This document shows, piece after piece, positions 60,530-63,921 of a stretch of 64,000 nt of DNA (the stretch's first letter is position 1; each line of letters begins with the position of its first letter). Both the position numbers and the translations under genes were made by a program. The notes under the pieces were generated by a model, which did not search any database, had not been told where the DNA came from, and saw only the letters and a list, made by a program, of their open reading frames with translations. The stretch is taken from positions 6,386,001 through 6,450,000 of the forward strand of contig NZ_CP107796.1 in NCBI RefSeq assembly GCF_036345995.1, given 5' to 3'. The DNA is from Streptomyces sp. NBC_00557. Lineage in GTDB: Bacteria > Actinomycetota > Actinomycetes > Streptomycetales > Streptomycetaceae.

Positions 60530-60714
60530 GCCGATCACTCCCTCGTGCCTCGGGTATGGGGCGTCCCGTTCAGTGTGGCAGCGGCCACTGACAACGCCCG
60601 GTGCGCGGCGCCCGCCTCGCCGCATGCCGCACGGATCCACCGCGCGCGCCCGCGACGATCTCCCGGGCCCTCACCGAACGCGCGGACGTAGAAAAACCGC
60701 TTGCACGGCCCCGT

Positions 60715-60720
60715 TAGACT
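60715..60720 (+). promoter_or_regulatory. -10 box placing transcription start at the leader ATG
   Basis: TAGACT is a good Streptomyces -10 hexamer and ends seven bases before the ATG at 60728. A transcript starting at the usual distance would begin at or within one base of that ATG, giving a leaderless mRNA. The -35 region is weak (TTGCAC is too close). Confidence 0.5.
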
Positions 60721-60727
60721 TCCTCCC

Positions 60728-60751
60728 ATGGCCATTCTCCTCGCGCATTAG
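60728..60751 (+). CDS. Leader peptide MAILLAH upstream of the ABC-F gene
   Basis: A complete 7-codon ORF, MAILLAH then TAG, lies 59 bp in front of the ABC-F gene. Its ATG appears to be the first base of the transcript (TAGACT -10 box seven bases before) and no ribosome site precedes it, fitting leaderless translation. Two overlapping pairing options for GGCGGG follow directly. Antibiotic-resistance ABC-F genes in several Gram-positive bacteria are controlled by ribosome stalling on such leaders, so translational or transcriptional attenuation is the inferred role here. Confidence 0.5.
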   Translation: MAILLAH

Positions 60752-60753
60752 AC

Positions 60754-60783
60754 GGCGGGAACGTCCTCAGCCGCCCACCCGCC
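60754..60783 (+). promoter_or_regulatory. Possible attenuator stem between leader ORF and ABC-F gene
   Basis: GGCGGG (60754-60759), three bases after the leader stop, can pair with CCCGCC (60778-60783); GGCGG can alternatively pair with CCGCC (60771-60775). A ribosome paused on the leader codons would cover the left arm. No poly-U follows, so it may act on translation or as a weak terminator. Confidence 0.35.
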
Positions 60784-60810
60784 AATCCCTGTACGCCCTG
60801 GAGTCTGTCC

Positions 60811-62409
60811 GTGATCTCCGCCTCCGGTATCGAGCTGCGCGCCGGTGCGCGCGTCCTCATCGAGAACGCCACCTTCCGTGTCGCCAAGGGCGACCGCATC
60901 GGCCTCGTCGGCCGCAACGGCGCCGGAAAGACCACCCTCACCAAGTGCCTGGCCGGTGAGGGCATCCCCGCCGCCGGCACCATCACCCGCTCCGGCGAGG
61001 TCGGCTACCTCCCGCAGGACCCCCGCACCGGCGACCTGGACGTGCTCGCCCGGGACCGGATCCTCTCCGCGCGCGGCCTCGACGTGCTGATCCGCAAGAT
61101 GCGGGAGAACGAGGAGCGGATCGCCAACGGCAAGGGCGCCACCCGCGAGAAGGCCCTCAGGCAGTACGAGCGCCAGGAGACGGAGTTCCTCACCAAGGGC
61201 GGGTACGCCGCCGAGGCCGAGGCCGCCACCATCGCCGCCGCGCTCAACCTGCCCGACCGCGTACTCGGCCAGCCGCTGCACACGCTCTCCGGCGGTCAGC
61301 GGCGCCGTATCGAGCTGGCCCGGATCCTGTTCTCCGACGCGGACACCCTCCTGCTGGACGAGCCGACCAACCACCTCGACGCGGACTCCATCATCTGGCT
61401 GCGGGACTACCTGAAGACCTACCGCGGCGGCTTCATCGTCATCTCCCACGACGTCGACCTGGTCGAGACGGTCGTCAACAAGGTGTTCTACCTGGACGCC
61501 AACCGGGCCACGATCGACATCTACAACATGGGCTGGAAGCTCTACCAGCAGCAGCGCGAGGCCGACGAGAAGCGCCGCAAGCGGGAGCGCGCCAACGCCG
61601 AGAAGAAGGCCGCCGCGCTCAACGCCCAGGCCGACAAGATGCGCGCCAAGGCCACCAAGACGGTCGCCGCGCAGAACATGGCCCGCCGTGCCGAGAAGCT
61701 GCTCGCCGGCCTCGAAGAGGTCCGCATGTCCGACAAGGTCGCCAAGCTCCGCTTCCCGGAGCCCGCGCCCTGCGGCAAGACCCCGCTGATGGCCGAGGGC
61801 CTGTCGAAGTCGTACGGCTCGCTGGAGATCTTCACCGACGTCGACCTGGCCATCGACAAGGGCTCGCGGGTCGTGATCCTCGGTCTCAACGGCGCGGGCA
61901 AGACCACCCTGCTGCGGCTCCTGGCGGGCGTCGAGCAGCCGGACACCGGCGCGGTCGTCCCCGGCCACGGCCTCAAGCTCGGCTACTACGCCCAGGAGCA
62001 CGAGACCCTGGACCCCGACCGCACGGTCCTGGAGAACATGCGCTCCGCCGCGCCCGACATGGACCTGGTCGAGGTGCGCAAGGTGCTGGGCTCGTTCCTG
62101 TTCTCCGGCGACGACGTCGACAAGCCCGCCGGGGTGCTCTCGGGCGGCGAGAAGACCCGGCTCGCGCTCGCCACCCTGGTCGTCTCCTCGGCGAACGTGC
62201 TCCTGCTCGACGAGCCGACCAACAACCTCGACCCGGCCAGCCGCGAGGAGATCCTCGGCGCCCTGCGCACCTACAAGGGCGCGGTCGTCCTCGTCACCCA
62301 CGACGAGGGCGCCGTCGAGGCGCTGCAGCCGGAGCGGATCATTCTGCTGCCGGACGGCGTCGAGGACCTGTGGGGCTCCGACTACGCGGACCTCGTCGCC
62401 CTGGCGTGA
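60811..62409 (+). CDS. ABC-F-family ribosome-associated ATPase
   Basis: 532-aa protein with two ABC domains and no membrane segment. Domain 1 has Walker A GRNGAGKTT and signature LSGGQRRRIELA; domain 2 has GLNGAGKTT and LSGGEKTRLALA; Walker B with DEPTN occurs twice (LLLDEPTNHLD, LLLDEPTNNLD). Between them is a long charged linker (DEKRRKRERANAEKKAAA), the P-site tRNA-interaction motif of the family. Such proteins enter the ribosomal E site and either protect against antibiotics or rescue stalled translation. GTG 60811 is preceded by CTGGAG. Which subfamily is not clear from reading alone. Confidence 0.93.
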   Translation: MISASGIELRAGARVLIENATFRVAKGDRIGLVGRNGAGKTTLTKCLAGEGIPAAGTITRSGEVGYLPQDPRTGDLDVLARDRILSARGLDVLIRKMRENEERIANGKGATREKALRQYERQETEFLTKGGYAAEAEAATIAAALNLPDRVLGQPLHTLSGGQRRRIELARILFSDADTLLLDEPTNHLDADSIIWLRDYLKTYRGGFIVISHDVDLVETVVNKVFYLDANRATIDIYNMGWKLYQQQREADEKRRKRERANAEKKAAALNAQADKMRAKATKTVAAQNMARRAEKLLAGLEEVRMSDKVAKLRFPEPAPCGKTPLMAEGLSKSYGSLEIFTDVDLAIDKGSRVVILGLNGAGKTTLLRLLAGVEQPDTGAVVPGHGLKLGYYAQEHETLDPDRTVLENMRSAAPDMDLVEVRKVLGSFLFSGDDVDKPAGVLSGGEKTRLALATLVVSSANVLLLDEPTNNLDPASREEILGALRTYKGAVVLVTHDEGAVEALQPERIILLPDGVEDLWGSDYADLVALA

Positions 62410-62693
62410 TCCACTGCGTATGGATCATTCGGCTCATCCGTGATCCATCATCTGTGTGAGATCTCCTCGTATCGGGGTGTGTCCTACACGCATTTTCCGG
62501 CCGATCCCTTGCGCGCCAAGGGGTCGGCCGTTTCGCGTCCCTGACCTGGCACTTCGCGAATCCACCCGTTCGGCCCCACCGACACCACCCTTTGGAATCC
62601 TTGATTCCGCTTGTGGGGATCCACTCCTGTCGTCACAACGATGTCTCACGGACCTTGCCGAATGGGTGGCCATCACGCCCGGGAGGGGTGATC
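62408..62693. promoter_or_regulatory. Cluster of seven GATC sites in the gbn upstream region
   Basis: GATC occurs at 62408, 62423, 62442, 62460, 62503, 62618 and 62690, seven times in 286 bp where about one is expected. Four lie within 56 bp, two of them in GGATCA/TGATCC contexts. The downstream gene encodes a Gbn-type protein, whose described target in S. coelicolor is GATC, so autoregulation is the obvious inference. The gap 62410-62732 contains no gene and must hold the gbn promoter. Confidence 0.55.
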
Positions 62694-62732
62694 ATGAGGA
62701 GACCAGAGCGCACTTCCCATGAGGAGGCACGG

Positions 62733-62954
62733 GTGGCCGAGACTCTGAAGAAGGGCAGCCGGGTGACCGGCGCCGCGCGCGACAAGCTCGCGGCAGACCT
62801 GAAGAAGAAGTACGACTCCGGTGCGAGCATCCGAGCACTGGCCGAGGAGACCGGCCGCTCGTATGGCTTCGTGCACCGGATGCTCAGTGAGTCGGGCGTC
62901 ACGCTTCGTGGGCGTGGCGGAGCGACCCGGGGCAAGAAGGCCGCATCGTCCTGA
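62733..62954 (+). CDS. gbn: Gbn-type GATC-binding nucleoid-associated protein
   Basis: 73-aa basic DNA-binding protein. It consists of a Lys-rich N-terminal helix (ETLKKGSRVTGAARDKLAADL) and a helix-turn-helix (ASIRALAEETGRSYGFVHRML) with a basic RGRGGATRGKK tail. Sequence, length and neighbours match SCO1839, described as Gbn, a small nucleoid-associated protein binding GATC-centred sites across the chromosome. GTG 62733 has GAGGAGG five bases ahead; the in-frame start at 62592 is too far upstream. Downstream lies the enoyl-CoA hydratase gene as in S. coelicolor. Confidence 0.92.
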   Translation: MAETLKKGSRVTGAARDKLAADLKKKYDSGASIRALAEETGRSYGFVHRMLSESGVTLRGRGGATRGKKAASS

Positions 62955-63117
62955 CCCCCGGGCGGCCCACCGGCTTCGATGGTGGCCATCCGGCCGGCCT
63001 CACCGCCGGGCCTGTGAGGGGCCCGGGGGCACTCCGGACCGGCCGGGTGGTTACTGTGCAGTCACTTAGCATGCCGTAACGGCACTGCGTGATGACCGCA
63101 CCCATCGGAGGCGCCCC

Positions 63118-63921
63118 ATGGCTTCGCCCGACCAGGACCTCGCTCCTGTACTCGACAAGGACGGCGTACGGCTCACCGTCGACGACGCGCTCGCCACGGT
63201 GACGCTGACCAACCCGGCCAAGCGCAACGCGCAGAGCCCCGCTCTGTGGCGGGCGCTGACCGAGGCCGGCCGGCTGCTGCCGGGCTCCGTCCGCGTCGTC
63301 GTGCTGCGCGGCGAGGGCACGTCCTTCTCCGCCGGGCTGGACCGGCAGATGTTCACCCCGGAGGGGATTCCGGGCGAGCCGACCTTCATCGAGCTCGCGC
63401 GCCGCGACGACGCCGGGCTCGACGCGACCATCGCCGAATACCAGGAGGCGTTCACCTGGTGGCGGCGCAGCGACATCGTGTCCATCGCCGCCGTCCAGGG
63501 GCACGCCATCGGGGCCGGCTTCCAGCTCGCGCTCGCCTGCGATCTTCGCGTCGTCGCGGACGACGTGCAGTTCGCCATGCGCGAGACCAGCCTCGGCCTC
63601 GTGCCCGACCTGACCGGCACGCACCCGCTGGTCGGTCTCGTCGGGTATGCCCGCGCGCTGGAGATCTGCGCGACCGGGCGGTTCGTCGGCGCCGAGGAGT
63701 CCGTGGCGTCCGGACTGGCCAACGTCGCCGTGCCCGCGGACCAACTCGACGACGCCGTACGGGACTTGGCGGCCGCGCTGCTGGCCGCACCGCGCGACGC
63801 CGTGGTGGAGACCAAGGCACTCCTGCGCGGTGCCCAGGACCGGGACTTCCAGGCCCAGCGCGCGGCCGAGCGCGCCGCTCAGGCCCGCCGCCTCAGGGAC
63901 CTGGCGGGCCTCGGCGAATGA
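63118..63921 (+). CDS. Enoyl-CoA hydratase/isomerase-family protein
   Basis: 267-aa crotonase-fold protein. The oxyanion-hole segments are RGEGTSFSAGLDRQMF and GHAIGAGFQLALACDLRV, and RETSLGLVPDLTG with an Asp/Thr in place of the usual catalytic Glu at the second position, so hydratase activity is not certain. It may act as an isomerase or hydrolase on acyl-CoA. ATG 63118 follows GGAGGCGCCCC. It ends at 63921; the last 79 bases of the window show nothing further. Confidence 0.9.
   Translation: MASPDQDLAPVLDKDGVRLTVDDALATVTLTNPAKRNAQSPALWRALTEAGRLLPGSVRVVVLRGEGTSFSAGLDRQMFTPEGIPGEPTFIELARRDDAGLDATIAEYQEAFTWWRRSDIVSIAAVQGHAIGAGFQLALACDLRVVADDVQFAMRETSLGLVPDLTGTHPLVGLVGYARALEICATGRFVGAEESVASGLANVAVPADQLDDAVRDLAAALLAAPRDAVVETKALLRGAQDRDFQAQRAAERAAQARRLRDLAGLGE

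Follow-up and report, generated by a model that had tools for sequence, protein, structure and literature searches.

In the window, a stretch of 64,000 nucleotides from Streptomyces sp. NBC_00557, an ABC-F gene is preceded by a conserved, probably leaderless upstream ORF (uORF) whose RNA is predicted to pair with the Shine-Dalgarno (SD) sequence and the start of that gene. We regard this leader as a probable translational attenuator with a leaderless sensor, in which the uORF itself would be the anti-SD. Computed directly were the conservation of the mini-ORF, its pairing with the ABC-F ribosome-binding site (RBS) beyond that of controls, and the covariation of an inner stem; the transcript start, the translation of the uORF, the opening of this structure by a ribosome and the class of drug involved are what we infer beyond these. 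A preliminary description of this DNA had listed a TAGACT box, a 7-nt gap, a MAILLAH ORF and the arms of a stem, all of which are present in the sequence. The leader is laid out as follows.

60691-60706, + strand: conserved box GAAAAAccgcTTGCAC upstream of the -10, resembling a WblC/WhiB7 motif plus -35, 8 bp from the -10
60715-60720, + strand: -10 hexamer TAGACT, read from the sequence, 7 nt 5' of the ATG at 60728
60728-60751, + strand: putative leaderless uORF, ATG GCC ATT CTC CTC GCG CAT TAG (MAILLAH-stop), from conservation and RBS pairing
60728-60731, + strand: AUGG at the uORF start, pairing with CCGU (60809-60812) at the ABC-F start in the predicted structure
60737-60740, + strand: CUCC in the Leu4-Leu5 codons, predicted to pair with the SD GGAG (60800-60803)
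60749-60751, + strand: uORF stop TAG, read from the sequence
60754-60759, + strand: GGCGGG, 5' arm of the inner stem, from the arm list and covariation
60771-60775, + strand: CCGCC, alternative complement, read from the sequence
60778-60783, + strand: CCCGCC, 3' arm of the inner stem, from the arm list and covariation
60800-60803, + strand: GGAG, ABC-F SD, read from the sequence
60811-62409, + strand: ABC-F gene, GTG start, 532 aa, probably of the OcrA/Rv1473 type, from family profile and gene order

From the end of the uORF to the GTG of the ABC-F gene the spacing in the window is 59 nt. TAGAMT occurs a single time in the window, both strands scanned, and this occurrence is the leader site.

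Results

Conservation of the uORF in Streptomyces

A short, -10-preceded uORF stands in the ABC-F leader of 158/160 upstream regions from the genus, 37/50 from other genera of the Streptomycetaceae and 24/77 from other families of the class. In the genus, a -10-like hexamer lies 6-7 nt before the ATG of an ORF of 7-14 codons, and the two exceptions are second gene copies (L129 and the truncated L176). This count rests on a first set of 147 upstream regions from 145 genus genomes, 145 of which matched the pattern (-10-like hexamer, 6-8 nt as the pattern counted, ATG, 7-14 codon ORF), and on 13 regions added by later searches (L181, L244-L255). A stricter finder, used for the controls, detects 156 of the 160 regions, missing two with TAGAGT; shuffled regions gave it a mean of 0.7 in the genus, 0.2 in the sister genera and 0.7 outside the family, and the reverse complement gave 0 in all three groups. 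The orthologue itself was found in 149 of 150 sampled genus genomes, the exception being G079, where nothing passed the threshold; the fetched upstream regions do not include those of the main copies in G017 (contig edge), G042, G106 and G212. A conserved, probably leaderless uORF with conserved structure in front of the ABC-F gene, as had been proposed for the window, is thus supported. The pattern that would speak against it, codons drifting between conserved flanks, was not seen in the genus, where the uORF is among the best-conserved parts of the leader.

All 158 genus uORFs start with ATG and end with TAG (155) or TAA (3). Among the 145 uORFs of the first set, the commonest peptides are MAILLAH (51), MAILLVH (24), MAFLLVH (10) and MANLLAD (10); residue 2 is Ala in 146/158 and the last residue is His in 132/158. 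Twenty-two of the 158 exceed seven codons, for example by a Trp insertion (MAILLWVH, MAVLLWVH), yet end near the stem. Variation in codon 3 falls mostly on the first two positions, and in codon 6 the second position varies with the third nearly fixed, so that across codons 3, 6 and 7 third positions are not favoured; this looks like a constraint on RNA pairing rather than on the peptide.

Pattern searches gave the same association. A degenerate 24-mer for MAILLAH-stop matched exactly in 39 of 199 genomes, the window genome included (39/121 in the genus, 0/78 outside it), with one match per genome and none for the reversed pattern; of these matches, 30 became loci, each within 200 nt upstream of an ABC-F gene. 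The exact pattern of -10 plus leader had at least 120 matches in named genomes, and among the 80 matches listed 79 are from Streptomyces and one is from 'Actinobacteria bacterium OV320'. Over three sets of leader loci, an ABC-F gene follows in 77/80, 30/30 and 29/30; the three misses of the first (L405, L424, L441) sit at the margin of the sequence stored for them.

Promoter and leaderless start

The -10 variants of the 145 first-set regions with a uORF are TAGACT (89), TAGAAT (42), TAAACT (5), TACACT (3) and others (6), and over all 158 genus uORFs the -10 is separated from the ATG by 6 nt (76) or 7 nt (82). In S. lividans, the mean distance from the -10 to the transcript start was reported as 6.3 nt (PMC8079986), and in WblC promoters of S. 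coelicolor transcripts start 7-8 bp downstream of the -10 (PMC7157823). Given this published spacing, the gap predicts a transcript that starts on the A of the ATG; the distance places it on the start codon in 158/158 genus uORFs, and in the window transcription would accordingly begin at 60728. The uORF is probably translated, since ATG and in-frame stop are retained and 22 leaders are longer by whole codons.

Upstream of the -10, the box at 60691-60706 is strongly conserved, with the consensus GAAAA-N3/4-TTGCNC. We considered a WblC/WhiB7-dependent promoter, for which GAAAWY, 3 bp, TKGMNN, 16-19 bp and TANNNT have been published (PMC7157823), and rejected it: a loose box (GAAANN-N2-4-TKGM) is found in 132/158 genus sequences, but the hexamer TTGSNN (form AAA-N3-7-TTGS) lies 8 bp from the -10 in 134/158 and 7 bp in 6, not 16-19 bp. 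A standard sigma-70 promoter scan of 60541-60900 in the window species returned no hit, and Rfam gave a single match, on the opposite strand and far under the gathering score of its family. In some orthologues a -10-like hexamer precedes the ABC-F start itself, by 6 nt in L191 and L300 and by 10-11 nt in L284-L286 and L292; there, the uORF may be absent and the ABC-F message may have no leader or hardly any.

The uORF as a predicted anti-SD

A consensus fold was computed from 125 of 142 distinct leaders of the genus, the 17 that exceeded 130 nt being dropped. It pairs CUCC of the uORF with GGAG of the SD and AUGG with CCGU at the ABC-F start; an inner stem lies in the interval from the uORF stop to the SD. 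CTCC is present in 154/158 genus uORFs, and GGAG lies within 20 nt of the ABC-F start in 158/158 regions. The probability of SD:uORF pairing is 1.00 in the window species (L031) and averages 0.92 in the genus, compared to 0.34 with a codon-permuted and 0.22 with a letter-permuted uORF; it exceeds 0.5 in 146 of 158 leaders and is below 0.5 in 12. Sister genera reach 0.41, barely more than the 0.36 of codon-shuffled uORFs (n=37, higher than the control in 19), and leaders outside the family 0.39 against 0.18 for codon-permuted ones (n=23). Thus, a leader structure closing the RBS, as in the translational type of attenuator, is predicted in the genus and weakly so in the sister genera; taken alone, the computed fold convinces in the genus, in part also beyond the family, and does not convince in the sister genera.

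The pairing was also assessed by swapping partners among 44 hand-chosen representatives, some of them close relatives (25 Streptomycetaceae orthologues, 2 paralogues and 17 from outside the family). uORFs paired with their own RBS at -12.9 kcal/mol compared to -10.7 kcal/mol with swapped ones (z -5.8, p 5e-5), and the 17 outside-family representatives alone gave p 1.5e-4. Controls yielded z 0.0 for promoter:RBS, z -1.5 (p 0.07) for uORF:coding region and z -0.4 for 5' arm:RBS; two further control rows, mid:RBS and uORF:mid, are invalid owing to an empty middle segment in at least one case. Some uORFs rank poorly with their own RBS, MPRRTP being last of the 44. Replacement of both partners is found in L282, which pairs GCACUCCCG with CGGGAGUGU, and in the paralogue L243, which pairs GACGCUCU with GGAGCGUC, each with one G-U pair.

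In the model, the RBS cost 10.9 kcal/mol to open on average in the free leader and 6.8 kcal/mol when a ribosome covered nt 1-16, the cost being lower in 156/158 leaders, and a ribosome at the uORF stop gave a mean of 7.3 kcal/mol; occupancy anywhere on the uORF would therefore help, and early stalling would be enough. Even when a ribosome is modelled on the AUG, the SD frequently has another pairing partner (unpaired at 0.08 in L031), so that the model predicts a partial opening.

Covariation of the inner stem

The inner stem starts at the uORF stop or right after it, as judged from a list of arms compiled without alignment, and its arms recur in changed sequence, as GACGGCG:CGCCGTC and CGTGCGTACG:CGTACGCACG in other leaders and as CTGACGGAC:GTCCGTCAG and TTCGAGGAC:GTCCTCGAA in the paralogue described below. 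In the swap test, the arms gave z -6.3. A covariance model, R1, was built from 9 leaders with 15 pairs and an alignment fitted to the structure. Of 100 loci chosen for the covariation count, 99 matched, all except L170; the 103 rows include four opposite-strand second matches (L113, L116, L117, L122), which were kept in the count. Eight of the 15 pairs change on both sides, compared to 1.9 in shuffles, none of 500 of which reached 8; six of these eight lie in the inner stem. The pairing AUGG:CCGU at the ABC-F start makes up four of the 15 pairs, and since the anti-SD and start-helix pairs hardly vary within the genus, covariation says little there. A MAFFT alignment of 24 divergent leaders (A1) misaligned the stems and was used for viewing alone.

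These data sharpen two earlier claims. GGCGGG and CCCGCC do form a stem, the covarying inner one, but the proposed switch of GGCGGG between CCCGCC and an overlapping CCGCC was not borne out: both complements are present in the window, and the arm list shows one recurring inner stem, with no second complement seen to be generally kept. Attenuation, which had been suggested too, remains the best reading of the leader, with the difference that the element predicted to hide the RBS is the uORF itself, by pairing with SD and start, and not the GGCGGG stem.

Other lineages and a paralogue

The 77 outside-family regions were hand-picked for family spread from 214 genomes with a match, excluding L331 at a contig edge; the family sample excludes G258 for the same reason. 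The mini-ORF is absent from 13/50 sister-genus and 53/77 outside-family regions. The 24 mini-ORFs outside the family start with ATG (12) or GTG (12), and one of them, L319, may well be a chance match. Their peptides are lineage-specific (MMPVAD, MRTPD, MPSVRTP, MSYYQRE, MLRCEG). Individual peptides recur among them: MMPVAD/MMTVAD in L271, L272 and L278, MRTPD/G in L282 and L283, MSYYQRE in L305 and L308, and MLRCEG/P in L309, L310 and L276.

A second ABC-F, 60-64% identical to that of the window (9 copies; L235-L243), has the leader peptide MSTPRIS or a close variant (MATPRIS, MSTPRVS, MSTLFIS) in 9/9 upstream regions. Together with the orthologue leaders, this gives two members of the ABC-F family with the same plan and different peptides. 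Matches to MSTPR(I/V)S occur in 46 of 249 family genomes, one each, and the reversed pattern has none; 30 of them became loci (L334-L363), and 29/30 precede an ABC-F gene. L362 has the MSTPRIS leader, a stem and an SD-like stretch, with no ABC-F frame behind. The -10/ORF finder detected 0/9 of the paralogue leaders, which were picked by motif, with a spacer of 7 entered rather than measured; their -10 boxes are weaker and their stem is different and covarying. SD:uORF pairing is 0.73 against 0.63 codon-shuffled and 0.67 letter-shuffled (n=9), which does not set it clearly apart from the controls.

The ABC-F gene and its neighbourhood

The ABC-F protein scores 394.8 bits against a cut-off of 380 with NCBIfam NF000355, 'ribosomal protection-like ABC-F', and its best-scoring solved chains are PoxtA, YbiT and YheS. 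A match at E<=1e-180 is present in 236 of 246 class-sample genomes, 22 of these 236 being from the genus. The window occupies 6.39-6.45 Mb of a 9.02-Mb genome of two contigs. Upstream of the ABC-F gene lies a glyoxalase-family gene on the opposite strand, and downstream, at 62592-63921, there are HTH_58 and enoyl-CoA hydratase (ECH) genes. L326, a relative from another family of the class (an ABC-F of 542 aa), has ECH upstream and HTH_58 downstream, and L325 has ECH upstream. The gene order with HTH_58 and hydratase is that of the OcrA/Rv1473 type, which we take to be the order Rv1472-Rv1473-Rv1473A; these neighbours, shared with L326, point to an old neighbourhood. The ABC-F protein of the window is likely to be orthologous to OcrA. 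rv1473 received the name ocrA in a study in which its knock-down was reported to increase sensitivity to linezolid (PMC9159947). Protection from oxazolidinones and phenicols has been described for OcrA and MAB_2736c (PMC9159947, PMC12633451), not for this protein.

Discussion

In the mechanism that we consider probable, the unoccupied leader would fold as a rod in which AUGG, CUCC and GCG of the uORF pair with the ABC-F start, the SD and its flank, held together by the inner stem behind the uORF stop, so that the RBS would be closed. A 70S ribosome loading on the 5'-terminal AUG and stalling within the first codons would occupy the anti-SD strand and free the RBS; a ribosome that finishes the seven codons fast would let the rod close again. 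The likely cause of stalling would be a drug at the peptidyl transferase centre, and the role of the ABC-F product would be to shield ribosomes from drugs of this kind. With chloramphenicol and linezolid, stalling occurs preferentially after Ala; this would fit Ala2 of the uORF, and we take it as no more than a lead. Drugs that halt ribosomes at the uORF start codon have been reported for tiaA and are5sc (PMC12421871).

That the uORF senses a signal other than a drug, be it the availability of 70S ribosomes, stalling at the start codon or the supply of leucine or branched-chain aminoacyl-tRNA, appears rather doubtful to us, although it has several points to its credit: 70S ribosomes are described as initiating on leaderless starts (PMC9031893), nearly all genomes of the class sample have the gene, as one would expect for a general translation factor, and Leu-Leu is present in 143/158 genus peptides. 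Leu-Leu occurs, however, in 1/24 of the peptides outside the family and in 0/9 of the paralogue leaders, with the layout unchanged.

Transcriptional attenuation, in which the inner stem would be a terminator or part of one and a stalled ribosome would let RNA polymerase through, we hold to be unlikely. The stem does set in directly at or behind the uORF stop, within reach of a terminating ribosome that would open it, and terminators in Streptomyces often have no T run. Precedents of this type exist in Streptomyces, reported for LmrC and supported for Are5sc (PMC8546547, PMC12421871). Yet a scan of 60541-60900 in the window species, in which terminators without a T run would be missed, found no terminator-like site, which favours translational over transcriptional attenuation, and under a terminator model the conserved uORF pairing to SD and start would have no function. 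Finally, an untranslated element whose fixed 5' structure sets a low rate of ABC-F translation, with ATG and stop incidental, would suit the RNA-like codon variation but is improbable, as ATG and an in-frame stop persist in all 158 genus uORFs, including the 22 leaders of changed uORF length, and other families replace the whole sequence but retain a short frame whose RTG stands 6-8 nt behind the -10 (24/77, compared to 0.7 when shuffled).

Several known systems come close to a translational attenuator of this kind. In erm and cat attenuators, a ribosome stalled in the leader opens the SD of the resistance gene; their leaders have an SD of their own, and the main SD is usually covered by a hairpin that arises from sequence surrounding or following the leader ORF. 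They would share with the window leader the opening of an SD by a stalled ribosome, and differ from it by the leader SD and the separate hairpin sequence. In Streptomyces, the attenuators of lmrC, tiaA and are5sc likewise have a short uORF before an ABC-F gene (PMC8546547, PMC12421871), and at the uORF start of tiaA and are5sc drugs stall ribosomes in toeprints (PMC12421871). Unlike the window leader, tiaA and are5sc are described with long 5'UTRs (194 and 232 bp) and ribosome-binding sites for their uORFs; for these three systems of the ARE5 subfamily, with peptides such as MLV and MVGDDDISG, terminators have been mapped (lmrC) or predicted. In the cplR attenuator of Clostridioides, the ABC-F SD is likewise hidden by leader RNA and translational attenuation is supported by mutants, but there a terminator hairpin hides the SD, the uORF is MRI and transcriptional attenuation operates too (PMC10201436); in the window leader, the leaderless uORF itself is the predicted pairing partner of the SD.

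Leaderless uORFs with hairpins behind them are likewise known from leuL, trpL, ilvL, thrL and metL of S. lividans (PMC8079986) and from the polycysteine ORFs of mycobacteria (described in PMC9031893). These differ in preceding amino-acid genes and are thought to sense the respective amino acid. The S. lividans survey, as described, covered amino-acid genes, and therefore says nothing for or against ABC-F genes; it does mean that leaderlessness alone is not new. Published work on Streptomyces thus already includes ABC-F genes controlled by uORFs as well as leader peptides of the leaderless kind. In the open-licence literature, supplements not included, we found no description of a leaderless uORF before this ABC-F gene and none of a uORF acting as an anti-SD in this manner; MAILLAH retrieved unrelated papers only, and MSTPRIS, MAILLVH, MAFLLVH and MANLLAD none.

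It is conceivable, and we suggest it tentatively, that these leaders form a class of sensor in which one leaderless mini-ORF serves simultaneously as ribosome trap, as reading frame and as anti-SD, rewritten lineage by lineage, with peptide and pairing differing and the layout the same, before a near-universal actinomycete ABC-F and its paralogue. Such a sensor would read a 70S ribosome stalled on the first codons and not a particular nascent peptide. If our reading is true, Actinomycetota possess a compact switch of ~80 nt that senses drugs or stalling with no leader, no uORF SD and no separate anti-SD, and in which a terminator is not seen. It would also explain why the first codons are conserved within a lineage though peptides differ between lineages, and the paralogue with its different peptide would be a natural test of whether the peptide or only the position of the ribosome counts. 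OcrA-type ABC-F proteins, in the reports cited here known from mycobacteria, are predicted by it to be translationally inducible in Streptomyces. In S. lincolnensis, two AAF4 proteins have been described, one of which is raised by clindamycin or by the lincomycin that is produced (PMC8546547).
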